The notes under the pieces are model-generated. The model did not search any database. It saw only the letters and a list, made by a program, of their open reading frames with translations, and was not told the DNA's origin. From positions 1-24,364 of the IMG/VR virus record IMGVR_UViG_3300017593_000873: a DNA stretch of 24,364 bases, one strand, 5' to 3'. A program made the position numbers and the translations under genes. Numbering within the stretch: the first letter of the stretch is position 1; every line of letters begins with the position of its first letter. Positions 1 through 19,500 of this stretch are shown in pieces. This DNA is from a virus.

Positions 1-2574
1 GGAATATACACTACAGATAAAAAGAAAGCATTACGAGATTTGGTTAATATTTTGAAAGAGAATAAAACAGATGTAGATATTTTAGCAGAACTTCATAATG
101 CTGGCTTTTTATTACCTACTGATTTGAATAAAGAATTTATGAAAATTACTGGATATGATGGAATAATTAGAAAAATGCCGAATGGAAAAAAGATTGTTGT
201 GGCACTTCATCCAGACCAAATTGTTATACTTGATGATTTCTACAACCAAGCAATCAAAGGAGTAAAAGCAACCAAACCCGCCCTCAAAGAAACCTGGCAA
301 AAAATCTCCACCTATCCTAAAAAAGGCGACTATGTAAGAGTAAACTGGAAAGGCAAAACCTATGAAGGAACAATTACTGGAGAAAAACCAGTCAGATTTA
401 GAACTGGATATGTGGCAAGAGAGATTACTACCAAAGAAGGAGTTAAGAAATGGATGCCGTGGACGAGTAAAGCGAAATATGAGGTGAAAATAGAAAAACC
501 GACGCCGACACCCGAAATCAAACCCAAAGCAAAGCCCGAGGCTAAACCAAAAATTAAACCAAAAATTAAACCAGAGATTAAACCAAAAGAGCCAGAGATT
601 CCTAAAGAAATTCACAAGAGCGACAAAGAATTAATAGAAAAATTGATAAAAAGATTAAAAGCAGCCCCTCTTTTTAGAGGCAAACAGGAGAAACTCTATA
701 CTGAAGCGAGAGCCAAAAAACTTGCTAAACTGTTGAAAATTAGAGGAAAAGAAAAAGGAGAGGAAAGATTTTACAAAGAGTTGGCAGCTCTAAAAGGAGA
801 ACTGCCTAAATTGCAATTTCAGCCAATTAGGGAAGGATTTGACCAAAAGAGCGTGGACAGATTGTTTGATATGATAGCAGAAAAGAGAATTTTGGATGAT
901 TGGGAGAAGGTTAATGCTCAAAAAGGATTACTGAAAGTATTAGAAGGTAGAGTCCCAACCAAGGCAGAAATCTCTTTATTGAATGATGTTTTTGGCGAAA
1001 GGTTTACAAAAGCCCTTTTAGAAAAAAGACCGCTCTTTGAAAAGATGACAGAGATGGGAATGCAACTATATAATCTATCTCGGAGCCTTATGGCTGGCTT
1101 TTTTGACTTCTCCGCTACCTGTATGCAGAATCTCTTATTTGCTTATAGACATCCTCTCAAGACAAGCGAGAATTTTGTTAAAAGTTTAAGAATGTTTGCC
1201 AGTGAAACCTACTTTAAGAAAAGTATGGAGGAAATTGTAATGAGACCAACTTATAGAGCAATGAAAAAAGCAAAACTTCCGTTAACAGAAATGGGAGGAA
1301 TTATTAGCGAGAGAGAGGAAATGTTTATGGCGCCTATTGCTGAAAAAATTCCTGTTATTGGAAAAGTTATTAGGGCTACTGGACGGGCTTATACAGGATT
1401 TCTTAACAGGATGAGGGCAGATGTATTTGATGCCTATTACAAAAGTGCTAAACTACTCGGCATAGATGTAGCAGATGAGAGATTCTTGTCTACACTGGGC
1501 AGATTTATAGGAAATGCTACAGGGAGAGGAAGATTGCCAGGGCAACTTGAAAGAGCAATGCCTGTTCTCTCACAGGGTTTATTTTCAGCCAGAAAATTAG
1601 CGGCTACTTTTGATATGATAAATCCTGAATTCTATATCACTCTTCATCCTTATGTGAGAAGGAAAGTTTTAGAAACCTGGTTAGCATTTTTGGGAGGTGG
1701 ATTAACTCTTTTAGGAATAGGTAAATTAGCAGGAGCAGAGGTTGAAACAGACCCAACTAATGCAGATTTTGGCAAAATTAAAATTGGTAATACAAGAATA
1801 AATGTTTTTGGTTCTTATCAATCAATAGCGGTATTATTAGCCAGATTATGGAAAGGATATATTACCTCTTCTACTACTAAAAAAAGAATGGTTTTGGGAA
1901 GAGGATATAAGCCTGTAACCCGTTTAGATATTATTTCTCGTTTCTTTTCAATGAAGCAGCATCCAACCTTAACTTTTATCTTTTCCTTGTTAAGAGGAAC
2001 AGACCAAATAGGGAGGAGATTTGATTGGAAAGAAGATGCTTTGAAAATGTATACGCCGATGGTCTTTCAAGATGGTAGGGACCTTTTTAAGGAACACGGC
2101 GCAACAAGATTATCTTTCTTTGGTGTAGTATTAGCAATGTTAGGAGTATCAGTGCAAACCTATGCTCCGACTATACGATTTAACGAGAAGATTACCAAAG
2201 AAGTAAGAAGATTACAGGACAAAGGATACAGTGAAATTGTCGGCATAGGAGCATATATGCCAGGATATCCTTCTTTATCTCTTAAAGAGAACGATTTAAT
2301 GCAGAGATTTGCCGAAAAATTGGCTAATTATAGAATCAGTAATCTATTGGCAAGTGAGGAATATAAAAAACTTTCAGACGAGGAAAGAGCAAGAAAGATA
2401 AACAATGAAGTCAAAAAAGCAATTCGCCGAGCAAAGGTAAGGATGATTTTGAAAAAGATAGAAGGGTTAGAAGGTGAGGAATTGAGGAGGAAACTTAAAA
2501 AATTTAAAGATGATGGCTTATTAACCAAAACAATTTTCAAGGAGATTAGAAAAGAAAGAGAGATTAGATTTTAA
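1..2574 (+). CDS. Large polyvalent-type phage protein, 5' end cut by window
   Basis: The frame is open from base 1, so this is the C-terminal 857 codons of a longer gene; a TTG at 40 is not needed as a start. After about 150 residues comes a Pro/Lys linker of repeated KPKIKP-type units (about 495-600), then helical charged sequence. The region around 1060-1470 has the pattern LSRSLMAGFFDFSA ... hP ... GRAYTGFLNRMRADVFDA. It resembles the LPD38-type domain of large polyvalent phage proteins (from memory of the family, not searched). Such proteins are thought to be packaged and injected with the DNA. A hydrophobic segment (LAFLGGGLTLLGIG) lies near 1680-1730, and the C-terminus is a Lys/Glu-rich helix. 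An internal virion protein is the alternative reading and is compatible. Confidence 0.75.
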   Translation, partial: GIYTTDKKKALRDLVNILKENKTDVDILAELHNAGFLLPTDLNKEFMKITGYDGIIRKMPNGKKIVVALHPDQIVILDDFYNQAIKGVKATKPALKETWQKISTYPKKGDYVRVNWKGKTYEGTITGEKPVRFRTGYVAREITTKEGVKKWMPWTSKAKYEVKIEKPTPTPEIKPKAKPEAKPKIKPKIKPEIKPKEPEIPKEIHKSDKELIEKLIKRLKAAPLFRGKQEKLYTEARAKKLAKLLKIRGKEKGEERFYKELAALKGELPKLQFQPIREGFDQKSVDRLFDMIAEKRILDDWEKVNAQKGLLKVLEGRVPTKAEISLLNDVFGERFTKALLEKRPLFEKMTEMGMQLYNLSRSLMAGFFDFSATCMQNLLFAYRHPLKTSENFVKSLRMFASETYFKKSMEEIVMRPTYRAMKKAKLPLTEMGGIISEREEMFMAPIAEKIPVIGKVIRATGRAYTGFLNRMRADVFDAYYKSAKLLGIDVADERFLSTLGRFIGNATGRGRLPGQLERAMPVLSQGLFSARKLAATFDMINPEFYITLHPYVRRKVLETWLAFLGGGLTLLGIGKLAGAEVETDPTNADFGKIKIGNTRINVFGSYQSIAVLLARLWKGYITSSTTKKRMVLGRGYKPVTRLDIISRFFSMKQHPTLTFIFSLLRGTDQIGRRFDWKEDALKMYTPMVFQDGRDLFKEHGATRLSFFGVVLAMLGVSVQTYAPTIRFNEKITKEVRRLQDKGYSEIVGIGAYMPGYPSLSLKENDLMQRFAEKLANYRISNLLASEEYKKLSDEERARKINNEVKKAIRRAKVRMILKKIEGLEGEELRRKLKKFKDDGLLTKTIFKEIRKEREIRF

Positions 2575-2717
2575 TAAAGTTCTCCTGCTGTTCCGCTTTC
2601 TAATCGTAGGTCAACTCCTAAAATATAATAGCCAATTAAAAAGAGCAGAATAGACCAGAGAATTCCCACGAGCATAGCAATAATGAAAAATTTAATATCT
2701 TTCCAAGTAAAACACAT
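2571..2717 (-). CDS. Small single-pass membrane protein, 48 aa
   Basis: This is the second gene of a minus-strand pair. It starts at ATG 2717, two bases after the stop of the 34-residue ORF, and stops at TAA 2573-2571, overlapping the end of the converging polyvalent gene by four bases. It begins MCFTWKDIKFFIIAM, followed by one long hydrophobic helix (about residues 9-34), then a short polar tail ending in GELY. The W..KD-then-helix layout resembles the upstream peptide. Its function is unknown; holin, antiholin, exclusion or toxin-like peptides are all possible from topology alone. No Shine-Dalgarno is visible, so translation is probably coupled to the first ORF. Confidence 0.6.
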   Translation of the reverse strand: MCFTWKDIKFFIIAMLVGILWSILLFLIGYYILGVDLRLESGTAGELY

Positions 2718-2719
2718 AA

Positions 2720-2824
2720 TTAAGGAAAAATTGAAAGAAAGCAATAACTAAAATAGAGCAAAAAGAAATAAAAGACAAACAAAAAGATAATAACAACAGC
2801 ATCTTTAGCAATTTCCCAATTCAT
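2720..2824 (-). CDS. Very hydrophobic 34-aa membrane peptide, probably leaderless
   Basis: ATG at 2824 lies seven bases after the -10 box of a near-perfect minus-strand promoter, so the mRNA should start at or just before the start codon. The peptide has a short polar N-terminus (MNWEIAKD), then one uninterrupted hydrophobic stretch to the end (FLFVFYFFLLYFSYCF). It is one of only two minus-strand genes in the window and is translationally close to the 48-residue gene. A small phage membrane effector is the best guess; no family is recognised. Confidence 0.6.
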   Translation of the reverse strand: MNWEIAKDAVVIIFLFVFYFFLLYFSYCFLSIFP

Positions 2825-2853
2825 TGCCAAAATAATAGCACTTTTGATAAAAT
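2824..2853 (+). promoter_or_regulatory. Possible divergent promoter for the holin-like gene
   Basis: TTGCCA (2824-2829), an 18-base spacer and TAAAAT (2848-2853), with TGA just before the -10 as an extended -10. It overlaps the minus-strand promoter completely, so the two would compete. It is weaker than the minus-strand one. Confidence 0.35.
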
Positions 2854-2860
2854 ATGTCAA
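2832..2860 (-). promoter_or_regulatory. Strong minus-strand sigma70-type promoter
   Basis: Read on the minus strand: TTGACA (2860-2855), a 17-base spacer, then TATTAT (2837-2832) preceded by TGC, an extended -10. Only seven bases separate the -10 from the ATG at 2824. The -35 is perfect and the spacing optimal. Confidence 0.75.
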
Positions 2861-2863
2861 GTC

Positions 2864-2871
2864 AAAGGTCG
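2864..2871 (+). repeat. AAAGGTCG octamer, representative of a recurring motif
   Basis: AAAGGTCG also occurs at 5513, 6477, 6723, 7562, 8718, 19222, 19434, 20133 and 21940, always on the plus strand and about 20-80 bases upstream of the next start codon. The copies at 2864 and 6723 extend to AAAGGTCGTTAA. Those at 20133 and 21940 share AGGGCTTA just upstream. The role is unknown. Confidence 0.5.
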
Positions 2872-2892
2872 TTAATTAAAACATAAAAATCT

Positions 2893-3147
2893 ATGGCAGA
2901 AGAAATTTTTGTCGGAGCAGTAGTTTCCCTGTTGGTTCAGGTAATCAAGAAACTCTACCGAGAATACATCAGTGAGGAATGGCAGGATGTGGCTGTTTTG
3001 GGAACTCTTGTCTTGTTCTCAATCGGGGGAGCAGCAATTTATCAGGTATTGGTTCACCAGGGCTTGTGGGAGTGCTTTTACAAGGTTATTGTCAACGCTT
3101 CGGCTATCTGGGCTTTGCTGATTAAAAGGGTGGAAGACAAGGCGTAA
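2893..3147 (+). CDS. Holin-like small membrane protein
   Basis: An 84-residue protein with two predicted membrane helices: residues about 4-18 (IFVGAVVSLLVQVIK), weak, and about 34-52 (AVLGTLVLFSIGGAAIY), strong. A further hydrophobic stretch lies near 64-78, and the C-terminus is charged (KRVEDKA). Size and topology suit a phage holin, which makes the membrane lesion for lysis. No lysis enzyme is directly adjacent; the nearest is the transglycosylase at 8346. It is followed by tandem terminators, so it ends its transcription unit. The family assignment rests on topology only. Confidence 0.5.
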   Translation: MAEEIFVGAVVSLLVQVIKKLYREYISEEWQDVAVLGTLVLFSIGGAAIYQVLVHQGLWECFYKVIVNASAIWALLIKRVEDKA

Positions 3148-3182
3148 TAATAACTCTTATACTCCGTCATCATTATAGGAAG

Positions 3183-3210
3183 AAGATTTTGCAAGGTCTT
3201 GCAAAATCTT
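3183..3210. repeat. 13-bp perfect palindrome with 2-base centre
   Basis: AAGATTTTGCAAG (3183-3195) and its exact complement at 3198-3210. A two-base centre is too short for a clean RNA loop, so a protein-binding DNA site is possible. It is followed by a CAGG/CCTG hairpin (3215-3228) and two terminators. Confidence 0.6.
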
Positions 3211-3230
3211 TAAGCAGGTGGATGCCTGTT

Positions 3231-3258
3231 AAAAACCTACTGCCCCCAGTCGGTTTTT
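3231..3258 (+). terminator. Terminator-like hairpin upstream of a stronger one
   Basis: AAAAACC-t-ACTG (3231-3242), loop CCCC, CAGT-c-GGTTTTT (3247-3258), with one mismatch. It ends in five T and could act in either direction. Confidence 0.6.
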
Positions 3259-3259
3259 G

Positions 3260-3282
3260 CCGCCCGTAAGGGCGGTTTTTTT
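3260..3282 (+). terminator. Intrinsic terminator
   Basis: CCGCCC (3260-3265), loop GTAA, GGGCGG (3270-3275), then seven T. It ends the holin-like transcription unit. Confidence 0.9.
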
Positions 3283-3289
3283 ATAAAAA

Positions 3290-3306
3290 GTGTCACGATG
3301 TGACAC
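3290..3306. promoter_or_regulatory. Operator-like palindrome upstream of the 3347 gene
   Basis: GTGTCAC, GAT, GTGACAC: perfect 7-bp half sites with a three-base centre. It lies just upstream of the -35 region of the next promoter, a typical position for a repressor or activator dimer. The cognate protein is not identified; the 53-residue HTH protein (6279) is one candidate. Confidence 0.55.
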
Positions 3307-3308
3307 AA

Positions 3309-3338
3309 TTAAAGTTAATTTGACAGGGGTGGTATAAT
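3309..3338 (+). promoter_or_regulatory. Extended -10 promoter for the 3347 gene
   Basis: TATAAT at 3333-3338 preceded by TGG. The -35 region at 3309-3315 is poor (TTAAAG); a TTGACA at 3320-3325 is too close (7 bp) to serve. The -10 ends eight bases before ATG 3347, implying a leaderless or nearly leaderless mRNA. Confidence 0.6.
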
Positions 3339-3346
3339 AAAGGAAT

Positions 3347-3577
3347 ATGGCAAGAAGGTCAAAAAGCATCAGGGTGGAAACAATCAAAGAAGCGGTAAGA
3401 GACTTCTATGGGCAATATAACCCAGATTTTAGAATTGTCTCTAATTTTATTAGAAAAAAGAAAACTCCAACGCTCACGGAAGAACAGAAAACCGCTATCT
3501 GGTATATTAAGCAGAATTTAGCGGATAAAACCTACCGAAACAGCGTAATCAAGGATTTGGGACTTTCTGGGCAATAA
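3347..3577 (+). CDS. Small basic protein of unknown function
   Basis: A 76-residue protein, not recognised. It starts MARRSKSIRVETIKEAV and looks helical with a positive N-terminus. The segment IRKKKTPTLTEEQ suggests a linker between two helical halves, so nucleic-acid binding is plausible but unproven. ATG 3347 is set by the promoter -10 eight bases upstream, with AGGA only two bases before the ATG, consistent with initiation on a very short leader. It forms its own transcription unit between an upstream operator and a terminator at 3591. Confidence 0.65.
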   Translation: MARRSKSIRVETIKEAVRDFYGQYNPDFRIVSNFIRKKKTPTLTEEQKTAIWYIKQNLADKTYRNSVIKDLGLSGQ

Positions 3578-3590
3578 ATACATCTTAAAC

Positions 3591-3611
3591 ACCCCAAAGT
3601 TGGGGGGTTTT
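3591..3611 (+). terminator. Intrinsic terminator after the 3347 gene
   Basis: CCCC (3592-3595), loop AAAGTT, GGGGGG (3602-3607), then TTTT. The G run could instead pair with CCCC at 3622-3625, giving an alternative hairpin. Confidence 0.65.
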
Positions 3612-3708
3612 CGGCTGATTTCCCCTTAAAAAAGACCTATACTCCCTGAGACGAGTAATTTCTCAAAAAAAGGGTTGTTTTATTTGTTTACTTAAAAGAA
3701 TTGAAAAA

Positions 3709-3996
3709 ATGCCAAAAACCAAGACCTTCACCAAAGGCAAAGACACCTACATTGTCTGTCCCAAATGTGGAGCAATCTACAACGCCAACGAAACAGAACA
3801 CTGCCCAGGTTGTTTATATGGTTTGAAACTTAATTATTCTCCTAAAAAGAAGAAAAAGAAAAAACTAACTCCCGAGCAATTAGAAAGACAAAGAAAATAC
3901 CAGCGTGAATATGCCAGAAAAAGACGCAAAGCAATAAAACTACTCTGGACAATGCCAAGTAATGGGGGACTTGACAACGATGAGCAGATGTGGTAG
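3709..3996 (+). CDS. Zinc-ribbon protein with a basic tail
   Basis: A 95-residue protein. Cysteines C17-x2-C20 and C32-x2-C35 form a clear zinc ribbon (CPKCG ... CPGC). A run of seven lysines (about 46-52) and an Arg/Lys-rich helix (QRKYQREYARKRRK) follow, then an acidic end. A nucleic-acid-binding accessory role is likely from composition; the exact function is unknown. It has no Shine-Dalgarno. Its stop codon (TAG) lies inside the -10 box of the next promoter, and the -35 lies in its last codons, so it and the HNH unit are separately controlled. Confidence 0.75.
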   Translation: MPKTKTFTKGKDTYIVCPKCGAIYNANETEHCPGCLYGLKLNYSPKKKKKKKLTPEQLERQRKYQREYARKRRKAIKLLWTMPSNGGLDNDEQMW

Positions 3997-3999
3997 GAT
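3971..3999 (+). promoter_or_regulatory. Promoter for the structured leader and HNH gene
   Basis: TTGACA (3971-3976), a 17-base spacer ending in TGTGG, then TAGGAT (3994-3999) with an extended -10. The expected transcript start is near 4006, giving a leader of about 127 bases before ATG 4133. Confidence 0.7.
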
Positions 4000-4018
4000 A
4001 GGGGGTGGAATATGGCGA

Positions 4019-4116
4019 AAATCGCAAGGAACAATTTAATACTTAATTGGCAACAATCCGCAGTTGTTTATGGGTTTTCTTGCGATTTCCCAGCCAGACG
4101 ACTGCGGATTTTTGCT
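4019..4116 (+). promoter_or_regulatory. Structured leader with two interleaved long inverted repeats
   Basis: Arm A 4019-4031 pairs with A' 4076-4088 (13 bp, one G-U; core AAATCGCAAG). Arm B 4049-4069 pairs with B' 4096-4116 (20 of 21 pairs; core AATCCGCAGT). The order is A-B-A'-B', so the stems are pseudoknotted or, more likely given their lengths and the short linkers, alternative. B is followed by ATTTTTGCTTGTT, which could make it a weak terminator. The leader ends 16 bases before the HNH start. A 36-codon ORF (4012-4122) runs through it; its codons are probably incidental, but a leader peptide is not excluded. Confidence 0.65.
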
Positions 4117-4132
4117 TGTTAGGAGTAAATTT

Positions 4133-4768
4133 ATGGCAAGCAGAGTAATATACAAAAAAGATGAATATGAACTCAAGGGGAAGAAGTATATTCAGATAGG
4201 AATAAATTCAATTGAAAGAGATATATTTAACGAATTGATTACTATCTTTAAGGAAAATTTTGCATTTTATCTACCAGAGCAAAAGGCTTGGTTTATAAGG
4301 TCTTATGGTTGGGATAAGTTGGAAGAAAAAGTTGAAAAAAAGATAGATAATCTTGTAGATGATATAGAAAATATAAGAGAAGAATTAGCAAAAAGAGTAT
4401 TAGAAAAAAAAGTATCTGAAATGATAAAAACAAAGGACGATGAAGAAATAGATGAAGATTTAGATGAAGATTTTTATGGAGAAGAATTTACAAGGATAAA
4501 AGCAAAGTTAAAAGTAAAACAAGAAGGAAGGTGTTATCTGTGTGGAAGGAAAAGAGCAGGTGTTTGCCATCACATTATTCCAGTTTCATTGGGTGGAAAA
4601 ACTGAAGAAAATAACTTAATTTTGTTGTGTTCAGAGTGTCATTCTAAACTACACACATATTATCGCAGGAAAGCGCAAGTTGAAATGTTTAAACAAGATG
4701 ACAATTTTTTCAGAAAGTGTATTGATGAATTTAAAAATCAGTTTGATGAAGAAAAGCAAAAACTATGA
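4133..4768 (+). CDS. HNH endonuclease
   Basis: A 211-residue protein. The start at ATG 4133 is supported by AGGAG seven bases upstream; an in-frame ATG at 4064 lies inside the structured leader and is rejected. The N-terminal 60 residues are a small mixed domain, followed by a charged coiled coil (62-100) and an acidic run (DDEEIDEDLDEDF). The C-terminal HNH domain has C134-x2-C137, H146-H147, N161 and C166-x2-C169-H170, i.e. the zinc-finger HNH type. Such genes in phages are homing endonucleases, packaging-associated nickases or nucleases of unknown role; it is not next to terminase, so a homing or host-DNA nuclease is more likely. Its stop overlaps the next ATG (ATGA). Confidence 0.85.
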   Translation: MASRVIYKKDEYELKGKKYIQIGINSIERDIFNELITIFKENFAFYLPEQKAWFIRSYGWDKLEEKVEKKIDNLVDDIENIREELAKRVLEKKVSEMIKTKDDEEIDEDLDEDFYGEEFTRIKAKLKVKQEGRCYLCGRKRAGVCHHIIPVSLGGKTEENNLILLCSECHSKLHTYYRRKAQVEMFKQDDNFFRKCIDEFKNQFDEEKQKL

Positions 4769-5559
4769 AACAAGAAAATGAATTTGCATTAGAGGAGCAG
4801 TTAGTAATTATCAGCATTCCTACAATAAAAAAATTATTATCTTACAAGAAAGTTGGCTCGGATGCTTTATTGCTGTATAACTTTTATTATTACACGGCTA
4901 AATGGCAAAAGACCAACCAGCCAAAAGCAACTCCTTATTTTTGTATGAAGGGATTGTGCTGGGGAAGAGATAGATTTAGAAAGGCTGACAAGTTATTAAG
5001 AGAATTAAATCTTATTCAAAAAATACCAAGTAAGGACAAGGAAGGAAAGATAACTGGCTGGTATGTTAGAATAAATTATATTTGGACAACTGAAAAAGAA
5101 AGGAAAATAAGCCCAGAAGGGACTATTTCCAGAAGGGTGGAAAACCCACCTTGTGGGAAGCAGACTATAAATGCTTCAAGTGTTGGTAATCTAAATGCTT
5201 CAAGTGTTAATAATAATATGCAAAGCAAGGCTTTGCAGGTTTCTGACGATGAAATTCAAAGAATTGCACACAAAAAACAAATTGATTACCTTATAGGGCT
5301 ATTTAAGGAAGTCAACCCCACTTATGAGCGATTATTTGGAAATAAAACCCAGCGGGCGGCGATGGAGCGCTTGGTCAAAAAGTTTGGCAAGGAGAAGGTA
5401 GAAAGGATGATAAAGGGGCTTAAAGGTATATTTGGCAAGCCATACGCACCAACTATAACAACTCCTTATTTGCTTGAAAAAAAATTGGCTGATTATATCA
5501 GTTATCTTAAAAAAAGGTCGGAAGAAAAAATTAACCTTATAGATGTGTCAAAACTATGA
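4765..5559 (+). CDS. Replication-initiator-like winged-helix protein
   Basis: A 264-residue protein starting by ATGA overlap. The N-terminal half (about 15-110) looks like a winged helix (YFCMKGLCWGRDRFRKADK, then LLRELNLIQKI and a beta wing). A Ser/Asn linker (about 125-155) is encoded by direct repeats. The C-terminal half (about 170-255) is helical, with LIGLFKEVNP and GKPYAPTITTPYLLEKKLAD, a pattern I associate with phage replication-organiser proteins. The layout (DNA-binding domain, repeat-containing linker, C-terminal domain) is like lambda O, where the origin lies within the gene. Helicase-loader binding by the C-terminus is inference. Confidence 0.55.
   Translation: MKQENEFALEEQLVIISIPTIKKLLSYKKVGSDALLLYNFYYYTAKWQKTNQPKATPYFCMKGLCWGRDRFRKADKLLRELNLIQKIPSKDKEGKITGWYVRINYIWTTEKERKISPEGTISRRVENPPCGKQTINASSVGNLNASSVNNNMQSKALQVSDDEIQRIAHKKQIDYLIGLFKEVNPTYERLFGNKTQRAAMERLVKKFGKEKVERMIKGLKGIFGKPYAPTITTPYLLEKKLADYISYLKKRSEEKINLIDVSKL
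5113..5208. repeat. Repeat cluster inside the initiator-like gene, possible origin
   Basis: CCAGAAGGG at 5113 and 5129; inverted repeat GGTGG/CCACC (5136-5150); TAAATGCTTCAAGTGTT at 5168 and again at 5192 (24-base period, encoding NASSV twice). They lie in the linker of a replication-initiator-like gene, as in lambdoid origins. Origin function is inference. Confidence 0.45.
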
Positions 5560-5942: not shown

Positions 5943-6234
5943 AGAAATCTTACGAGATTACCCCGAAACTCGCAGTTCTGATAAAAAGTTATTCTTAAAA
6001 GTGCTGGAAAGATTTGGTCTAACCTTAACAGACGAACAAAAAAGAAAATTCCTTCAAATTCCTATCTCTTACGAGTCGGTCAGGCGAAGCCGTCAGAAAA
6101 TCCAAAATGACGAGGGCAAATACCGCCCAAGCGAGCAGGTTATCAAGGCAAGGGAGCAGGAAAGAAAAGCGGTAAGCGAAGCGGTGTTATCGGAAGAAGA
6201 AAAGTTAAAGAGGTTTAGCGAGATGTGTTTATAG
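5905..6234 (+). CDS. Conserved-type phage protein of unknown function
   Basis: A 109-residue protein. ATG 5905 is chosen because GGAGGAG lies at 5891-5897 with a good spacer; an upstream frame opening at 5872 has no such signal. The motifs DYPETRSSDKKLF, IPISYESVRRSRQKIQ and YRPSEQVIKAREQE match, from memory, a small protein common in tailed-phage early or replication regions with no assigned function. It overlaps the preceding gene by 38 bases and is followed at once by a new promoter, so it ends the 4133-6234 operon. Confidence 0.7.
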   Translation: MVRGLRISKKIVEEILRDYPETRSSDKKLFLKVLERFGLTLTDEQKRKFLQIPISYESVRRSRQKIQNDEGKYRPSEQVIKAREQERKAVSEAVLSEEEKLKRFSEMCL

Positions 6235-6240
6235 GGGGGC

Positions 6241-6269
6241 TTGACAAAAATTTGATAGTGTGGTAGAAT
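6241..6269 (+). promoter_or_regulatory. Promoter of the 53-aa HTH gene (copy 1 of a duplicated promoter)
   Basis: TTGACA (6241-6246), a 17-base spacer, TGG then TAGAAT (6264-6269). ATG follows nine bases later. Bases 6240-6265 are identical to 6425-6450. Confidence 0.75.
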
Positions 6270-6278
6270 TAGGGCAGT

Positions 6279-6440
6279 ATGAGGGAAAAAAGAGAAAGAA
6301 ACAAAATAATAATTGAAAGAATAAAGCGGGGGGATTTCTTAACGGACATTGCTCGTGAGTTCAATATTAGTCTGTCCCGAGTGTCAAAAATCAAGAAGCA
6401 TTATTTGATAGAAAAAAAGAAGGACTTGACAAAAATTTGA
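6279..6440 (+). CDS. Small helix-turn-helix DNA-binding protein, 53 aa
   Basis: Starts at ATG 6279, nine bases behind its own promoter -10, so the leader is absent or only a few bases long. A basic N-terminal helix (MREKRERNKIIIERIKRG) is followed by a clear helix-turn-helix: FLTDIAREFNISLSRVSKIK (residues 20-39), with the usual A in helix 1, a turn at FNIS and the recognition helix LSRVSKIKK. The size is like a bare DNA-binding domain of a phage regulator. The gene is bracketed by two copies of a 26-bp promoter segment, the second lying over its own 3' end, which suggests it controls both itself and what follows. Its targets are not shown. Confidence 0.75.
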   Translation: MREKRERNKIIIERIKRGDFLTDIAREFNISLSRVSKIKKHYLIEKKKDLTKI

Positions 6441-6454
6441 TAGTGTGGTATAGG
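6426..6454 (+). promoter_or_regulatory. Second copy of the duplicated promoter
   Basis: TTGACA (6426-6431), the same 17-base spacer, TGG then TATAGG (6449-6454), a weaker -10 than copy 1. It overlaps the stop codon of the HTH gene and drives 6465 onwards. Confidence 0.6.
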
Positions 6455-6464
6455 AAAGGCAGAA

Positions 6465-6530
6465 GTGGAAAACTTAAAAGGTCGGCTCAAGGAAAAAGAG
6501 CATAAAACCAAAAAGGTCAATAAAGAATAA
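6465..6530 (+). CDS. Possible 21-aa leader peptide
   Basis: GTG 6465 lies ten bases after the promoter -10, mirroring the layout of the 53-residue gene (both have GGCA just before the start). It encodes a basic peptide (MENLKGRLKEKEHKTKKVNK) and stops five bases before the next ATG. It could equally be untranslated leader containing one AAAGGTCG copy. Confidence 0.3.
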   Translation: MENLKGRLKEKEHKTKKVNKE

Positions 6531-6535
6531 AAACT

Positions 6536-6724
6536 ATGAACAAAGAATTTCAGCCTGCTCTTCATAGAAAGTTAATTAAAGAAGGCAAGATGACAGAGCA
6601 GGAAAGCGAAAATTTAGTAAGAGAGTGGGAAGAGATGATGGCGGAGCAATTGGAGCAAGAATTTTCCGAAGAATATCCTCTCGGTGGAAGTTTAGAACCC
6701 TACGACATCGTAGAGGAACACTAA
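6536..6724 (+). CDS. Small acidic protein, unknown
   Basis: A 62-residue protein in an A-rich, SD-less start context (AAAACTATG). It is strongly acidic in the second half (REWEEMMAEQLEQEFSEEY). No motif is recognised. It is downstream of the second HTH-flanking promoter. An AAAGGTCG copy overlaps its stop codon. Confidence 0.55.
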   Translation: MNKEFQPALHRKLIKEGKMTEQESENLVREWEEMMAEQLEQEFSEEYPLGGSLEPYDIVEEH

Positions 6725-6732
6725 AGGTCGTT

Positions 6733-6795
6733 AAATGGTTGCAGTGACTTGGAGGCAAGGTTTTGGGCGACCATTTCCCTTGTCTCCAAATCACT
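6733..6795 (+). promoter_or_regulatory. Second interleaved inverted-repeat leader, before the RecB-like gene
   Basis: A 6733-6742 pairs with A' 6767-6776 (10 bp, one G-U). B 6743-6760 pairs with B' 6778-6795 (17 of 18, one G-U, one mismatch). The order is again A-B-A'-B'. Single bases or none separate A from B and A' from B', so both stems cannot form together; it should be a two-state switch. It ends 11 bases before ATG 6807. The core GGTTTT...GCGA...ATTTCCC resembles the element at 4072-4091. Confidence 0.65.
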
Positions 6796-6806
6796 TGCCT
6801 ACCAAA

Positions 6807-7625
6807 ATGGAAACATACAAACTCTACAACGGCAAAATAACCTTACAATTTGACCCCGAAAAGCACATCTACAAGGTGGGAGACAAAATCGTCTACGGGG
6901 TTACAAACATCGTCAGCATCCTTAACAAGCCCCTCCTGGTCAATTGGGCTACAAAATTAGCAATAGACAAAGTAAGAGAGAAAAAAGACCTGCTCGCTAC
7001 TGACTTGGAAGCAGTCCTTAACGAAGCAAAAAGGGAGCACTATGAGGTCAGCAAAAGAGCGGCAGAACTGGGAACTCGTGTTCACGCAGTAGCAGACAGA
7101 TGGTTTTCAGAGGACAAGGTAGGGTTATTTCGTGAGATGTTAGCGGTAAAGAACGATGAAGAGAGAAACGCCTTATCAGCGTTCTTAAAGTTTATTCAGC
7201 AAAACAAAATAAAGCGGGAACTGGGAGAAAGGAAAATTTACTCTAAAAAGTATCAATACGCAGGCACAGTTGATTTTATTGGACAGATTAACGGCAAAAA
7301 AGTAGTAGCGGATTACAAGACCAGTTCAGCAATTTACCCAGAATACTTTGCCCAGGCTGCTGCCTACGCTCAAGCATTGACAGAAGAAGGATTTTCTATT
7401 CAAGAGACCGTAATTGTCAGAATAGGCAAGGATGGCACACTTGAAGTAAAAAGAGACAGCGAGTGGAAGAAAAAAATCCCCGTGTTTCTTGCTATGAAAA
7501 AAATCTACGAGTGGCAGATGAAACTGTTAGAAGAAGAATTTACTCAAGATGTCAAACCCTCAAAGGTCGTAAAAGTTGAAGAAAAAGTTGAAGAAAAAGT
7601 TGAAGAAAAAGTTCTAACTCACTAA
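6807..7625 (+). CDS. RecB/Cas4-like PD-(D/E)XK nuclease
   Basis: A 272-residue protein starting at METYKLYNGK. An ATG at 6735 would add 24 residues, but these are encoded by the inverted-repeat leader and are rejected. The motifs are those of the RecB nuclease family: GTRVH (H93), ERKIYS, GTVD (D156), ADYKTS (D169, K171) and Q183-AAAY. This fold acts on DNA ends; with the SSB-like protein next door it likely serves phage recombination or replication, like the lambda Exo role. The C-terminal tail is VEEK repeated three times, encoded by a 12-bp tandem repeat. There is no Shine-Dalgarno, and regulation by the leader is likely. Confidence 0.8.
   Translation: METYKLYNGKITLQFDPEKHIYKVGDKIVYGVTNIVSILNKPLLVNWATKLAIDKVREKKDLLATDLEAVLNEAKREHYEVSKRAAELGTRVHAVADRWFSEDKVGLFREMLAVKNDEERNALSAFLKFIQQNKIKRELGERKIYSKKYQYAGTVDFIGQINGKKVVADYKTSSAIYPEYFAQAAAYAQALTEEGFSIQETVIVRIGKDGTLEVKRDSEWKKKIPVFLAMKKIYEWQMKLLEEEFTQDVKPSKVVKVEEKVEEKVEEKVLTH
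7575..7610 (+). repeat. 12-bp tandem repeat, three copies
   Basis: GTTGAAGAAAAA three times, in frame, adding VEEK units to the nuclease C-terminus. Probably slippage-generated. Confidence 0.85.
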
Positions 7626-11548: not shown

Positions 11549-11718
11549 AGAAAAAGTTAAATGAAATTTTAATAGAGTTTGATAAAGCAGAAGCCAAACT
11601 TTCAACGCATCCATTAAAGGGTGGTTGCTCAATAAAATATGCCGAATTATTACGAAAAGTATATTCCAACGAGTTATTGAAGAAAATAAGATTATACTTA
11701 CCAAGCAGAATTAAATAA
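11545..11718 (+). CDS. Unknown small protein, 57 aa
   Basis: Starts by ATGA overlap and ends two bases before the next ATG. Helical and basic (MKKKLNEILIEFDKAEAKL; LLRKVYSNELLKKIRLYL). Not recognised. Confidence 0.55.
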   Translation: MKKKLNEILIEFDKAEAKLSTHPLKGGCSIKYAELLRKVYSNELLKKIRLYLPSRIK

Positions 11719-11720
11719 TT

Positions 11721-12005
11721 ATGTCAAAACAAAAGAAATATTATTATCCAAAACGGAAAGCAGAACTGTCTTTGCAATTTTGGTGGGATGAAAAAACGAG
11801 CCGTTGGAATTTATTAGTAACAAAAAATAAGAAAAAACACTCTTTTCCTTGGCTCGGAGACCCAATAATATTTGGTGAGAGTTTGGCAAAAGATAAACAC
11901 CTTGATGAAAATGATAAAGAGTTTTTGCAAAGGGTTTTTGAACATTATTTGTTATGTTTAAAAGAGTTAACTAATGACCAAAAACCAACCAAAAAAACTA
12001 AATAA
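11721..12005 (+). CDS. Unknown protein, 94 aa
   Basis: Begins MSKQKKYYYPKRKAEL. A beta-like first half with aromatic residues (LSLQFWWDEKTSRWNLLV) is followed by a helical end (LDENDKEFLQRVFEHYLLCL). Not recognised. Confidence 0.6.
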   Translation: MSKQKKYYYPKRKAELSLQFWWDEKTSRWNLLVTKNKKKHSFPWLGDPIIFGESLAKDKHLDENDKEFLQRVFEHYLLCLKELTNDQKPTKKTK

Positions 12006-12408: not shown

Positions 12409-12756
12409 ATGGCAAAACAAAAGAAAACAATCGAAGAAGAGATAAATCAGATAATAGAGGATTATTTTGAGATAACAGAAAAATTGAGTGATAATGAACT
12501 CTGGAAATTTTGTAGAGGAAAACAAATACGGAACTTTTTATATGGTTCTCTAATTGAAATTACCTATACCTTCCTTCAACGCTTTATAGAGGAGACGAAA
12601 GTAAAAGAAAAAATTTATGAAGAGGAGATAAAAAAATTTAGAAAGGATGACTCAATTTTCGAGGGAGAATTTTATGAACAATTTTTAGATGGTTATAATT
12701 ATGCTTTAAAAAAGGTTAATCAAAAACAAGCACAATGGCTAAAAGAGAACTTTTAG
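12409..12756 (+). CDS. Unknown helical protein, 115 aa, paralogue B
   Basis: Six bases after paralogue A, starting MAKQKKTIEEE. It shares the RFIEET and WLK-x-x-F segments with A, including a 17-base identity near 12580. It overlaps the next gene by 22 bases. Function unknown. Confidence 0.6.
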   Translation: MAKQKKTIEEEINQIIEDYFEITEKLSDNELWKFCRGKQIRNFLYGSLIEITYTFLQRFIEETKVKEKIYEEEIKKFRKDDSIFEGEFYEQFLDGYNYALKKVNQKQAQWLKENF

Positions 12757-12965
12757 AACAAAAAATAATCACCCAAATAAAAAAGAAAATCAAAAACAAA
12801 CTAAAAGAATTAGCGTTTGAAGACGGCAATGTTGATGAAAACTGGCGGGTGTTGTGTAAAGAATTAACAGACGACTTTTACACTCCCGGCGACGAAATCA
12901 AAATAGACAGTGTGGATTATGGGTATAAAATCACAAAGCAGAATAAACAAAGGAAAAAGATTTGA
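12735..12965 (+). CDS. Unknown small protein, 76 aa
   Basis: Starts inside the end of paralogue B and runs 47 bases into the resolvase-like gene. A basic helical N-terminus (KIITQIKKKIKNKLKELAF) is followed by an acidic middle. Not recognised. Confidence 0.5.
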   Translation: MAKRELLEQKIITQIKKKIKNKLKELAFEDGNVDENWRVLCKELTDDFYTPGDEIKIDSVDYGYKITKQNKQRKKI

Positions 12966-13377
12966 AAAGTTAATAGCCCAAGAGATTGAAGCGGAAGGAT
13001 TAGGAATAGCAAGAAGAGAAATAGGAAGCGGTTCTGGAAGAAGAAAAGGCGATATTGCATCAAGTATTCCCTTTCTGTTAGAATGTAAGAACCAGCCATC
13101 AGCAAAAATTCAGACAATTCTTAATTGGATAGACCAAGCCAAAAGCCAAGCAGAGAAAGGAAACTGGTCTCCAGAAAAATGGGCTCTGATATTCAGGGAC
13201 TCAAGAACCCCCGAAAGCAGACCTGACATCTACGCAGTAATTGATTTTTGGGAATTTCTAAAATTGATGAAAAAAGACCAAGCCCCCCGCATTAAGCAAC
13301 CCGACCGTGAGATGAGATGGAAAATCCAGAGATTGATTGATTCAGCAAAGGCTGTATTAAAAGAATTAAAAGAATAA
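12919..13377 (+). CDS. Resolvase-like PD-(D/E)XK nuclease
   Basis: A 152-residue protein from ATG 12919; a GTG three codons earlier is possible. The N-terminal half has the archaeal-Hjc-like layout: KGKRFEKLIAQE (E17), REIGSGSGRRKGD (D45), FLLECKNQ (E55, K57), then helix QTILNWIDQAKSQA. A C-terminal basic helix follows. Enzymes of this fold cut branched DNA (Holliday junctions) or act as other structure-specific nucleases; just upstream of packaging genes, junction resolution before packaging is the likely role. Related VRR-NUC or restriction-type nucleases are alternatives. It ends in TAATG overlap with the next gene. Confidence 0.7.
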   Translation: MGIKSQSRINKGKRFEKLIAQEIEAEGLGIARREIGSGSGRRKGDIASSIPFLLECKNQPSAKIQTILNWIDQAKSQAEKGNWSPEKWALIFRDSRTPESRPDIYAVIDFWEFLKLMKKDQAPRIKQPDREMRWKIQRLIDSAKAVLKELKE

Positions 13378-13760
13378 TGACCAACAAAGAAAAAAGAATT
13401 AAACAAGTCAAAGATTACATTGACAAAGTGCTTTCAGAAATAACTGCTTTTGTCCCGATTATCCGCCGATACGAAATCAGATATATGGACGAGGAAACAA
13501 ACCCGAGCAACGGCGATTTCTCAGTAAGTTATGACCCTGTTTCTTTTGATGCCGAGTTTCGTGTATATAAAGACCTTTTTAACAAGATGCCAGATGAAGG
13601 AATAACAGAAGGATTTAAGAATTACATCAAATCAGGATTGGGGCACGAAGTAGGACACTGCTACATCTGGGAACTGGAGGGAACGCATAGAGATACAGAA
13701 AAAGTCGCCTCCTTGATTGGATTTTTAGTCGCCGAAATTTTGGATAATAATAAAGTATGA
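13377..13760 (+). CDS. HExxH metalloprotease-like protein
   Basis: A 127-residue protein. HEVGH (H90, E91, H94) is a zincin signature, and E108 in the following helix (TEKVASLIG) could be the third ligand. The N-terminal part has beta strands with NGDFSVSYDPVSF. It could be a minimal SprT/IrrE-like zinc protease or a structural relative. Starts MTNKEKRIKQ, nearly the same as the next gene's MTNKEQQIKD. It lies just before terS, so it may process a phage or host protein at the onset of packaging; that is inference. Confidence 0.6.
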   Translation: MTNKEKRIKQVKDYIDKVLSEITAFVPIIRRYEIRYMDEETNPSNGDFSVSYDPVSFDAEFRVYKDLFNKMPDEGITEGFKNYIKSGLGHEVGHCYIWELEGTHRDTEKVASLIGFLVAEILDNNKV

Positions 13761-14314
13761 CCAACAAAGAACAACAAATTAAAGACCTCCAAGTCAAAAT
13801 AAAAAAGTTAAGCGTTTTGCTTAATAGTTTACTGCTCGTTAGGGGCATAAAAGGGATGCAGGAGTGCTATTCTAATTTAATCAGAGATTTTTATTCAGCG
13901 AGCGCTATTCAAACTGCTATTAAGCAGAGAATAAGACGAATTCCTGTAATTGAGAAAGACCTTATTTACTTTACAACAACCGAGCAGAATTGGAGAATAC
14001 TTTTATCTCTGATTTACAACAATATAATTAAAGCGTTTAAGTGGCGTCGGGAGTATGCCGATTGTGATGACCGAGCAAAGTTTGTTTGTGCTTTGATTTC
14101 TTTTCTCTTTACATTAAACGCCTCCGCTCAAGTTTACTGCGAAGTGAGCGGTTTCGGCGGATGGCGAGGAAGGCACTACTGCAATTTAGTAGTAACCTCT
14201 GAAAAAAAAGTATTACTATTTGATGTAGATAATGGAGGAAGGATTAAGGAGGTGGTTGGTGATAATATGACGATGGGGGGAGTGAGGTATAAGTTTTTTA
14301 AGGTGATTTTTTGA
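13757..14314 (+). CDS. Papain/transglutaminase-like cysteine protein
   Basis: A 185-residue protein. YADCDDRAKF (C103), GRHYCNLVV (H140) and LLFDVDNG (D156/D158) occur in the order Cys-His-Asp, as in transglutaminase or papain-fold enzymes of phages. The first 90 residues are a helical region beginning MTNKEQQIKD. Enzyme class and substrate are unknown; a protease, amidase or crosslinking enzyme is possible. ATGA overlap with the metalloprotease-like gene suggests joint action. The gene ends in the first copy of a 15-bp tandem repeat. Confidence 0.55.
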   Translation: MTNKEQQIKDLQVKIKKLSVLLNSLLLVRGIKGMQECYSNLIRDFYSASAIQTAIKQRIRRIPVIEKDLIYFTTTEQNWRILLSLIYNNIIKAFKWRREYADCDDRAKFVCALISFLFTLNASAQVYCEVSGFGGWRGRHYCNLVVTSEKKVLLFDVDNGGRIKEVVGDNMTMGGVRYKFFKVIF

Positions 14315-14346
14315 AAGATTATTTTTTGAAAGATTTTTGAGAGATT
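14306..14346. repeat. 15-bp tandem repeat at a gene end
   Basis: ATTTTTTGAAAGATT at 14306-14320 and 14321-14335, then a decayed third copy to about 14346. The first copy contains the TGA stop of the preceding gene. Confidence 0.8.
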
Positions 14347-14347
14347 T

Positions 14348-14701
14348 ATGGCAAATTTAGCAACATTAAAACCATTCAAAAAAAACGACCCTCGCAGACA
14401 TATCAAGCAGAAGGGCGAGATAAGCGCAAAAACAAAGTTCCGCAACTTTATTGAGGACTATTTTAACTACAAAAAAAGCCAAGGCATTTCAAAAGAAAAA
14501 GCAATCAAAGAATTGATGGAAAGGTTTGATAAATTCTCCAAGAAAGAAGCGAGGATTTTGACCTATTTAGGAGACAGAATTTACGGCAAGCAAGTAGAAA
14601 AAGTTGACCTAACTTCAGGTGGTAAACCACTTCCTTTACTTCACAATGTTCGTAATAACAACGGCAATCAAAAAACTGGTAAAACTGAAAAAGAGGATTA
14701 G
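14348..14701 (+). CDS. terS: Terminase small subunit-like protein
   Basis: A 117-residue protein. It begins MANLATLKPFKKNDPRRHIK, close to the start of many small-terminase proteins, then a helical middle (KAIKELMERFDKFSKKEARI) and DRIYGKQVEKVDLTSGGKPL, which also recurs in these proteins. The role is recognition of the phage DNA for packaging; it lies directly upstream of and overlapping terL, the standard gene order. No clear N-terminal helix-turn-helix can be seen. Called mainly from context and these two motifs. Confidence 0.65.
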   Translation: MANLATLKPFKKNDPRRHIKQKGEISAKTKFRNFIEDYFNYKKSQGISKEKAIKELMERFDKFSKKEARILTYLGDRIYGKQVEKVDLTSGGKPLPLLHNVRNNNGNQKTGKTEKED

Positions 14702-15863
14702 GGTAGCAGTTGGGGGGACCTCCGGCGGAAAAACTATAGGCATAGTTGCTATCCTGATAGATTTAGCCCAGCGAGATAAAAAACCCACCCTAACCAGCAT
14801 AGTTTCAGAATCCTTCCCGCACCTTAAAAGAGGAGCAATGAGGGACTTTTTGAACATAATGAAAACCCAGGGCTATTACAAAGACAGCAGATGGAACAAA
14901 ACAGATTATATCTACGAATTTGAAACAGGGAGCAAGATTGAATTCTTTTCAGCAGACCAACCAGACAAAGTAAGAGGACCAAGACGGGACAGGTTATTCA
15001 TCAACGAGGCAAACAACATCCCGGGCGGATTTGAAACCTTTGAGCAATTGGAAGTGAGAACGAAAGAGTTTGTTTTTATGGACTGGAATCCAGTTAGCGA
15101 ATTCTGGTATTACACAGACCTAAAGCCAGCGAGAGCAAACGAGATTGACGAGATAACCTTAACTTATAAAGACAACGAAGCACTGCCAGAAAGCGTAGTA
15201 AAAAGTATAGAAGCCAGAAAAGACAGAAGGAACTGGTGGCGAGTATTCGGATTAGGGCTTTTAGGAGAAGCAGAGGACAGAATTTACAGAGATTGGCAAA
15301 TAATAGATGAAATACCCCACGAGGCGAGATTAGAGTGTTATGGACTGGATTTTGGCTATTCATTAGACCCGACGGCGATAATAGCAATTTATTATTACAA
15401 CGGTGGATATATTTTAGACGAAATAACTTATCAGAAAGGATTAAGCAACAAAGAAATAGCAGACATCCTTAAAAACCAAGAAGCAAAAGTAGTGATAGCA
15501 GATAGCGCAGAACCTAAAAGCATAGACGAGTTAAAAAGTTATGGCATAAATGTCTTACCAAGCGAAAAAGGAGCAGATTCAGTAAGATACGGCATAGCAA
15601 TTGTCCAGGACCAGAGAATAAGCGTGACCAAAAGAAGCGTCAATATAATCAAAGAATACAGAAACTATCTCTGGGAAAGAGATAGAGCGGGCAGATTAAC
15701 AAGAAATCCAATAGGAGTAAACAACCACACTATGGACGCTATAAGATACGCTTTAGTTTATCTTAATCCTCGTGCTCCTGAAGATGAAATTAAACAAGAG
15801 ATAGAAATTGAGCAAAAAAGGACACTATTACAAGAGATGAGAAAAAAAGATTATGGCTTATAA
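14646..15863 (+). CDS. terL: Terminase large subunit
   Basis: A 405-residue protein from ATG 14646, overlapping terS by 56 bases; an upstream TTG at 14619 is less likely. The N-terminal ATPase has Walker A GGTSGGKT (23-30) and Walker B RLFINE (116-121). The C-terminal RNase H-like nuclease has acidic residues in GLDFG (D235), IADSAEP (D286) and HTMDAIRY (D364). The protein pumps DNA into the prohead and cuts it. It matches the shorter PBSX/Terminase_3 type. It is followed by an overlapping 139-residue gene. Confidence 0.93.
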   Translation: MFVITTAIKKLVKLKKRIRVAVGGTSGGKTIGIVAILIDLAQRDKKPTLTSIVSESFPHLKRGAMRDFLNIMKTQGYYKDSRWNKTDYIYEFETGSKIEFFSADQPDKVRGPRRDRLFINEANNIPGGFETFEQLEVRTKEFVFMDWNPVSEFWYYTDLKPARANEIDEITLTYKDNEALPESVVKSIEARKDRRNWWRVFGLGLLGEAEDRIYRDWQIIDEIPHEARLECYGLDFGYSLDPTAIIAIYYYNGGYILDEITYQKGLSNKEIADILKNQEAKVVIADSAEPKSIDELKSYGINVLPSEKGADSVRYGIAIVQDQRISVTKRSVNIIKEYRNYLWERDRAGRLTRNPIGVNNHTMDAIRYALVYLNPRAPEDEIKQEIEIEQKRTLLQEMRKKDYGL

Positions 15864-16272
15864 ATTTAAACTTACTAAAAAACAAGAAATAAGATGGGGA
15901 AAACCTATTAGGAATGATTACTATCACTTATGTTTTCAATTGTTTTCACGGGGAGCGGTTTCTATGGGGGTTGAGATGAGGAAAATAGAAGTTGAAGAAG
16001 AAAATCCTTTCAAATATCTTGTTTTCCTTTGGTGGCTTAGTTGTAATGTTAAGAAAGGAAGAGTGATAGTGAGTGAAAGCAATATGCTTCCTTTTCGTTG
16101 TAAAAATAAGAAAAGTGCTAAAAGAATATTCAAAAGATTTAGTGAAGTTATACCAGAAGCCAGAAAAGATTGGTTAAAACTTCAGCAAAAGTTTCTTATA
16201 CCTAAAGGTTTGGCTTATGACCCAAATTATGACCCAAAAGCCCAACAAAATCAACATAGACGACATAATTGA
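15853..16272 (+). CDS. Unknown protein, 139 aa
   Basis: Overlaps the end of terL by 11 bases. It begins MAYKFKLTKKQEI. The middle has FKYLVFLWWLSCNV, which is hydrophobic but flanked by polar sequence and not a clear membrane segment, and a basic helix (RIFKRFSEVIP). Its tail overlaps the next small gene. Not recognised; it lies inside the packaging operon. Confidence 0.6.
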   Translation: MAYKFKLTKKQEIRWGKPIRNDYYHLCFQLFSRGAVSMGVEMRKIEVEEENPFKYLVFLWWLSCNVKKGRVIVSESNMLPFRCKNKKSAKRIFKRFSEVIPEARKDWLKLQQKFLIPKGLAYDPNYDPKAQQNQHRRHN

Positions 16273-16366
16273 ACAATACAACGACCCTGTTAAAAGAAAA
16301 AAAGAACAAATAAAAAAAAGGCGTGAGGAACGCCAAAAAGAAAAGGTCAAAGATTGGGGATTATGA
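16217..16366 (+). CDS. Unknown small protein, 49 aa
   Basis: ATG 16217 (or ATG 16229) opens a frame that ends exactly on the ATG of the next gene (ATGA), good support for expression. A highly charged helix (NDPVKRKKEQIKKRREERQ) ends KVKDWGL, similar to the end of TerL (KKDYGL). Function unknown. Confidence 0.6.
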   Translation: MTQIMTQKPNKINIDDIIEQYNDPVKRKKEQIKKRREERQKEKVKDWGL

Positions 16367-16554
16367 ACAACAAAATCAAACTTGAATTAGACCCAAAAGA
16401 AGCAGATTTAATTCAAAAAATAAGGGAAATAAAATTCGGCAGGGTAATAGTGATTATCCGCAGGGGTTTGCCAATCAGAATTAGAAAAGCCTTCAGAGAT
16501 GTTATACTTGGCAGAGGATTTAACAGGTTAGAGGATAAACTGAACGGGGATTGA
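16363..16554 (+). CDS. Small protein resembling DUF2292-type proteins, 63 aa
   Basis: Starts at ATGA overlap. A helix then strands: LIQKIREIKFGRVIVIIRRGLPIRIRKAF is reminiscent of short DUF2292/YezD-like proteins (I-R-x-I-x-F-G-x-V-x-I pattern), from memory. The function is unknown. It is the last gene before the portal leader RNA, and its stop codon falls at the first TTGACA repeat. Confidence 0.55.
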   Translation: MNNKIKLELDPKEADLIQKIREIKFGRVIVIIRRGLPIRIRKAFRDVILGRGFNRLEDKLNGD

Positions 16555-16580
16555 CAGGGCTTGACAGGACTTGACAAATA
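16551..16580. repeat. Three TTGACA-containing 10-bp direct repeats
   Basis: TTGACAGGGC, TTGACAGGAC and TTGACAAATA in tandem, one helical turn apart. The third is the -35 of the portal-leader promoter; the first overlaps the upstream stop codon. Confidence 0.85.
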
Positions 16581-16598
16581 GTTTTCTTTTGCTATAAT
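16571..16598 (+). promoter_or_regulatory. Promoter of the portal leader RNA
   Basis: TTGACA (16571-16576), a 16-base spacer, TGC then TATAAT (16593-16598), an extended -10. The start point should be near 16605. It is the strongest plus-strand promoter seen. Confidence 0.85.
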
Positions 16599-16604
16599 AA
16601 AAGC

Positions 16605-16722
16605 GACAATTGAATACTGCGGGGCATAAACCCCGAAATTAGCCTCCTACGGGAAGAACCCGACAGGCTGTCAAATACTCATTAAGTTGAGGTGGGTATC
16701 TGATAGTTTGTCGGGTTTTTTT
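16605..16722 (+). ncRNA. Structured leader or small RNA before the portal gene
   Basis: About 118 bases from a strong promoter to a strong terminator, with no ORF. Hairpin 1: CGGGG-CATAAA-CCCCG (16620-16635). Hairpin 2: AGCCT (16641-16645) with AGGCT (16665-16669), enclosing CGGG-AAGAA-CCCG (16650-16662). Hairpin 3 is the 17-bp terminator. Hairpins 2 and 3 compete for bases 16659-16669, so hairpin 2 acts as an antiterminator by design. It is either an attenuator of the head operon or an independent small RNA; a packaging RNA is a bolder idea because it sits between terminase and portal. Confidence 0.7.
16657..16722 (+). terminator. Long-stem intrinsic terminator directly before the portal start
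   Basis: Bases 16657-16673 pair with 16701-16717 without mismatch (17 bp including three G-U). An inner stem ATACTCA/TGGGTAT (16675-16699) caps it, and seven T follow (16716-16722). The portal ATG is three bases after the T run. Confidence 0.85.
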
Positions 16723-16724
16723 AT

Positions 16725-18422: not shown

Positions 18423-18667
18423 AAGGAATACTAACCATATTCAAAGAAATAACAAAGAAAAACCAAGAGCAGAAATTCAGAAAGATAAAGAAACTTCAGA
18501 AAGAAATGGAGGAACTATATTTACAAGCCTATCCCACTAAAGCCTTACAAGAAGCAATCCAGAAAACGAGACAGGAATTTGCCCAAAAAGAAAGAGAACT
18601 GGTTGAGGAGTATATGCAAAAAGAGGTTGATTTATTAAAGGATAAAAAACTTCAATTACAAGAATAA
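18419..18667 (+). CDS. Small coiled-coil protein, 82 aa
   Basis: Starts by ATGA overlap with the portal. Almost wholly a charged helix (KKLQKEMEELYLQA, AQKERELVEEYMQK), probably a coiled coil. It may be a head-assembly accessory from position. Not recognised. Confidence 0.65.
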   Translation: MKGILTIFKEITKKNQEQKFRKIKKLQKEMEELYLQAYPTKALQEAIQKTRQEFAQKERELVEEYMQKEVDLLKDKKLQLQE

Positions 18668-18669
18668 TT

Positions 18670-19007: not shown

Positions 19008-19008
19008 T

Positions 19009-19266: not shown

Positions 19267-19270
19267 GCAT

Positions 19271-19435: not shown

Positions 19436-19443
19436 AGGTCGGG

Positions 19444-19463: not shown

Positions 19464-19500
19464 AGGGCTTTGGCAAACCTCACTAAAAACCAAAAAGATT

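Follow-up and report, generated by a model that had tools for sequence, protein, structure and literature searches.

Two long inverted repeats that interleave just ahead of an operon raise a simple question: which structures does the transcribed leader form, and which genes does it control? The leader considered here lies in a phage record of 24,364 nucleotides (IMG/VR record IMGVR_UViG_3300017593_000873), referred to below in its whole length as the window, immediately upstream of a gene for an HNH endonuclease. Direct inspection of the sequence located four arms where an earlier note on this DNA had placed them and in the same order, A-B-A'-B': arm A (4019-4031), arm B (4049-4069, the 5' arm of a terminator-like hairpin), arm A' (4076-4088) and arm B' (4096-4116, the 3' arm of that hairpin, including a T-run at 4109-4113), all on the + strand, as are all window features with coordinates in the leader and its operon. 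The linkers of 17, 6 and 7 bases and the 16 bases between the end of the element and the HNH start codon (ATG, 4133) also agree with that description. A and A' are 92% complementary over 13 positions with one G-U, and B and B' form 20 of 21 pairs when G-U is counted as a pair. This four-arm arrangement is far beyond chance. An interleaved helix pair of equal strength was found in 0 of 1000 dinucleotide-preserving shuffles of the leader, whether or not a T-run was required, and in a scan of both strands of about 270 kb from the window and related phages the leader is the strongest interleaved site of the window's genome. Relative to shuffles, the fold of the 130-nt leader (-45 kcal/mol) has z = -4.9 and the B hairpin by itself z = -6.7. 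The leader does lie behind a predicted promoter, TTGACA-17-TAGGAT with an extended -10 TG (3971-3999); it had been called strong, and its match to the consensus is good (10/12), but equal matches occur at chance frequency in the region.

The element had been regarded as the leader of a nuclease gene. In the window, however, the HNH gene (4133-4768; Pfam PF01844, 44 bits) is merely the first gene of a same-strand run that extends from 4.1 to about 14 kb with the leader at its head. The HNH stop codon overlaps the start of the second gene, which encodes a DnaD-like helicase loader or replication protein (4765-5559; phrog_186, E = 3.9e-5), and the run also includes an exonuclease and a RusA-like resolvase; the terminase and capsid genes come after it. 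The ends of the window (1-4347 and 12534-24364) overlap a contig of 29,094 bases (IMGVR_UViG_3300016457_000389) at 99.95-100% identity, and joined to each other the two sequences would close a circle of about 37.3 kb, which fits a phage genome that is circular or circularly permuted. Elsewhere in the window, two back-to-back terminator-like hairpins, one per strand, lie at 3259-3306 between the genes at 2893-3147 and 3347-3577, and an M23 peptidase gene (22711-24321) is split in frame by a LAGLIDADG-containing insert, intein-like in appearance.

In the viral collection scanned, a pattern derived from arm B found one independent phage with the same leader (L005); the number of homologues is a lower bound. 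The L005 leader is 87% identical to that of the window over 127 bases, ending in the first codons of the next gene, while the flanks, promoter excepted, are unlike. The gene directly behind it is not an HNH gene but a replication-O-like gene (Pfam Phage_rep_O, 31 bits; phrog_678, E = 1.4e-15). The leader thus goes with the replication operon rather than with the nuclease, and HNH-specific regulation was rejected on this ground. Outside the leader, 266 bases of the window (11709-11974) are 97% identical to the phage of L005 (G001, 33213-33478), most of the two genomes being unalignable; this near-identity reflects a recent exchange and hence probably shared hosts. A relaxed B-stem pattern returned the two known leaders and no others, and the pattern ACTTAAT...TTAGGAGT...TTATG in viral contigs returned the known leaders and unrelated matches, nothing else. 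Scans of genome contigs for the leader peptide and the stem pattern gave no matches, comparison of the leader with phage and plasmid records gave no convincing match, and a BLAST match to GACTGCGGATTTTTGCTT in Microviridae was judged a chance, terminator-like match. Homologue searches through the window HNH gene yielded the same phage and one distant HNH, and through the DnaD-like gene none.

Relatives of the L005 replication gene, likewise O-like, stand directly behind a leader in two further phages, L023 and L024. These leaders are not alignable with that of the window; they have the same design, with arms A, B, A' and B' and a T-run. The resemblance was first spotted by eye and tested afterwards: each of the two was equalled by 0 of 1000 shuffles, and in both the leader is the top interleaved site of the fetched locus, whereas in the genome of L005 it is tied with one other site. 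A similar promoter, TTGACA-17-TAATAT or TATAAT (the latter in L023 and L024), is found upstream of the L005, L023 and L024 leaders, so that in all four phages the leader sits between a promoter and replication genes, promoters and transcript starts being predictions throughout. The same scan gave no interleaved site before the replication gene of a more distant relative, L025, and two distant annotated phages have other reading frames upstream of the O gene, separated from it by no more than about 90 bases. One more phage of the group, which has another early gene in common, carries behind a TTGACA-16-TATAAT promoter a leader of different design (L021, 7320-7445), in which AGAGGGGGTTC can pair with GAGCCCTCTCT, which can alternatively pair with AGAGAGGG just before an ATG; from its sequence, it is possibly a translational switch of another kind. 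Side features of these loci include a long intein-like insert in the terminase-like gene of L023 (5610-7949) and, in L024, a Ro60-like gene (6175-7569; Pfam TROVE, 96 bits, and vWA_Ro60) directly behind a YrlA Y-RNA-like match (6052-6153; RF02553, 41.4 bits, E = 8e-8, below the gathering score of 69).

A structured RNA beside an HNH gene is reminiscent of HEARO, the omega RNA of IscB. However, searches of the window, L005, L023 and L024 leaders against Rfam 15, including HEARO and the known riboswitches, gave no match at the gathering score, and the best weak matches were chance, in line with the earlier note, which knew of no named family. An IscB protein was not found downstream, the HNH domain alone matching with 34.7 bits against a cut-off of 175, and the window-type leader occurs without an HNH gene in L005.

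The homologous pair makes it possible to ask whether the pairing itself is preserved. The window and L005 leaders differ at 16 bases; A and A' contain four of these each, and every change in A' stands opposite a change in A (1 in 715 by position). Three pairs (4022-4085, 4025-4082 and 4028-4079) have passed from one Watson-Crick pair to another, and the fourth, near the helix end, has gone from G-U to A-C. Changes are about four times as frequent in the two arms as elsewhere (8/26 versus 8/100, P = 0.005), while the core of B:B' is identical and the changes in its lower part (4049-4116 and 4053-4112) keep pairing. Covariation, the absence of which would have spoken against the element, is therefore seen in three A:A' pairs changed on both sides and still paired in L005; we regard this as good but thin evidence for A:A', as it comes from two sequences, and transitions, which when opposed to each other tend to restore pairing by themselves, account for 15 of the 16 changes. 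Inverted repeats co-vary at the DNA level too, and the position at the head of a replication operon would suit a DNA element, either origin iterons or an operator, that is transcribed by coincidence. Yet the element lies between the promoter and the start codon, A and A' are 44 bases apart, and several imperfections are G-U on the + strand and are kept in both homologues. Because of these G-U pairs, folding is less favourable for the reverse strand by 11-14 kcal/mol in the window and L005, an asymmetry absent in L023 and L024; it suggests that the selected molecule is more likely the + strand RNA than the DNA, and we consider a DNA element extremely unlikely.

The same base changes bear on a coding role. 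A 36-codon frame runs through the leader (4012-4122), is open in the window and L005, and ends in a TAG that overlaps the Shine-Dalgarno region; coupling of rep to a leader peptide occurs in plasmids, and ribosomes translating such a frame could open B and restart at the HNH gene. Against this, the encoded amino acids vary freely in A and A' though the arms still pair, second codon positions account for 9 of the 16 changes, no like frame was seen in L023 or L024, and with the transcript start as predicted the window frame would have almost no untranslated lead. Control by this frame, the role of which is doubtful, is hence in our view very unlikely. A uORF acting through its peptide was rejected, the peptide not being conserved in the arms and no like frame being seen in L023 or L024. 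Frameshifting of ribosomes out of the uORF and into the HNH frame was likewise set aside, as inspection by eye showed no slippery site.

What, then, does the RNA form? In the window and L005, the latter with matching bases, the first predicted state is one long hairpin. In the prefix folds it is closed by an outer helix between UGGC (4013-4016) and GCCA (4093-4096), a pairing kept in L005, where it is one pair longer, and continues through A:A', ACUUA (4041-4045) with UGGGU (4071-4075), and GGCAAC with GUUGUU, which pair within arm B (4049-4054 with 4063-4068) and leave the loop AAUCCGCA at 4055-4062. This hairpin ties up both the 5' arm of B and the strand able to pair with the Shine-Dalgarno region. 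The second state is the B hairpin. Its apical loop contains A' in the window, L005 and L023, whereas in L024 A' is itself paired within the hairpin. At its base in the window, ACUUAAU pairs with the Shine-Dalgarno region (4042-4047 with 4118-4123), so that the AGGAG at 4121-4125 is partly paired. When the transcript is folded as it grows, A:A' belongs to the minimum-energy structure up to 100, 101, 68 and 107 nt in the window, L005, L023 and L024, and B:B' takes over from 101, 102, 69 and 108 nt, respectively; in all four leaders this equilibrium crossover, for which the polymerase is not accounted, falls at, or one base ahead of, the last base of the B' core. A third pairing, between GCGAAAATC (4015-4023) and GATTTTTGC (4107-4115), was rejected, a U-A pair being lost in L005.

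The two nested folds share strands and are mutually exclusive, which fits a two-state RNA, as first proposed, and not a static pseudoknot. An H-type pseudoknot holding A:A' and B:B' together and binding a protein or ligand is conceivable on paper, where the arms do not overlap and both sets of pairs are compatible, and it would equally profit from the covariation of A:A'; but the joint between A' and B', 7 bases long (0 in L023), would have to span a helix of 12-13 bp, and together with the shared strands this makes such a structure highly improbable. The two-state idea is largely supported, with two elements that the earlier note lacked: the base of B pairs with the Shine-Dalgarno, and A:A' acts by closing a hairpin in which the 5' arm of B is sequestered.

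Whether the second state ends transcription, translation or both depends on the hairpin B:B'. It is terminator-like, although the T-rich stretch that had been placed after B exists in a different position: the T-run sits within arm B' as drawn and comes after the GC-rich core CCGCAG/CTGCGG, not after the whole arm. Such a T-run directly behind a GC-rich core is common to all four leaders. The terminator score is strong in L024 (43.5) and marginal in the window (d = 8.0), L005 (2.6) and L023 (0.7), and a mainly translational switch is therefore possible for the window. In its pure form, B:B' would never terminate and would extend to hide the Shine-Dalgarno, which A:A' would open; in the window and L005 the base of B pairs with the Shine-Dalgarno region and the terminator score is low, and both observations point that way. 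The T-run in every leader speaks against it, as do L023 and L024, which have the T-run and a hairpin that does not reach a strong Shine-Dalgarno, and we judge translational control alone to be rather unlikely.

Altogether, the leader is probably a terminator/antiterminator attenuator with an added Shine-Dalgarno lock, heading the early replication operon. Sequence and computation provide the basis of this reading: two folds that share strands, the point at which one gives way to the other, compensated changes in A:A' and a design that recurs before replication genes. Once the polymerase has left the promoter, A would pair with A' as soon as A' is made, closing the long hairpin, folding the 5' arm of B on itself and sequestering the anti-Shine-Dalgarno strand; in this ON state transcription would continue and translation could start. 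The exposed loop AAUCCGCA is complementary to the 3' part of B' and may thus offer it a natural invasion site: the completed B' would enter there, unzip the first fold and form B:B', which with the following U-run would end transcription (OFF). On transcripts that read through, the base of B:B' would pair with the Shine-Dalgarno and keep translation OFF as well. Whatever delays or blocks A:A' pairing, be it an RNA, a protein or the speed of the polymerase alone, would then set the output.

The three leader groups have no sequence in common, which speaks against a conserved pocket for a ligand; the candidate inputs are then a pairing RNA, a protein of the phage or kinetics alone. Because the arm sequences are entirely different from one phage group to the next, we consider a pairing RNA or intrinsic kinetics the likeliest. 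The terminated short leader RNA, which would expose A' in the loop and leave A as an unpaired tail, might be the regulator itself, pairing in trans with nascent leaders of the same type and blocking A:A', hence causing more termination. We hold this to be improbable; if true, it would limit replication-gene expression with phage dosage and give type-specific exclusion of related phages, and the faster, compensated divergence of A and A' beside an unchanging B would represent a drift in specificity comparable to plasmid incompatibility. The attenuator reading as such would mean that compact attenuators of one architecture stand at the head of phage replication operons in three sequence groups that cannot be aligned, and it suggests that this RNA gate has been built or re-specified repeatedly by phages. 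Should its input be an RNA, phage replication would be under a sequence-specific control that is invisible to RNA-family searches, because the architecture alone is conserved. The leaders are natural switches of about 110 nt and directly testable in vitro.

Attenuators that gate a replication initiator are textbook knowledge in plasmid copy-number control, and we found no direct precedent in the open-access literature for such attenuators of phage replication genes. In phage P4 (CI RNA immunity) and Gifsy-1 (IsrK), RNA pairing brings about the premature termination that silences phage replication genes (PMC4825925). The leaders described here resemble P4 in the proposed premature termination before replication genes and in RNA pairing; in P4, however, a processed RNA pairs with seqA and seqC, whereas here intramolecular pairing alone is evident. 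RNA immunity of the P4 CI or P1 c4 type would call for an RNA that is released, pairs with the leader in trans and so terminates transcription; A', as described above, is in the loop of B in three of the leaders and paired in that of L024. The repR attenuator of the Inc18 plasmid pIP501 terminates the rep mRNA prematurely within its leader (PMC4981023), which measures 329 bp; there the switch is driven by a 136-nt antisense RNA (RNAIII), with the protein CopR as a further component. The proposed attenuation in a replication-gene leader is alike, and equivalents of RNAIII and CopR were not found here. The repC attenuator of the Staphylococcus plasmid pT181 precedes a replication-initiator gene and has an antiterminator upstream that sequesters the terminator's 5' arm (PMC5703833); an 87-nt antisense RNA drives the switch. 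In our computed folds, too, an upstream sequence holds that arm by strand sharing, to the exclusion of the terminator, and the AGGAG of the window forms part of the base of the B hairpin. The window leader differs in being compact (about 130 nt), in belonging to a phage and in the antisense strand, on which a search for sigma-70 promoters gave scattered 9-10/12 matches, none in L023, and no consistent promoter. Since no such promoter was found, we do not claim membership in the pT181/pIP501 type. A further defining feature of these plasmid systems recurs: a replication protein is encoded downstream (O-like and directly behind the leader in L005, L023 and L024; DnaD-like and second after HNH in the window). 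A hairpin with a T-run lies between promoter and start codon in all four leaders, with a terminator score that is strong in L024 and marginal in the other three. By analogy, the window leader would work like the rep attenuators of pT181 and pIP501.
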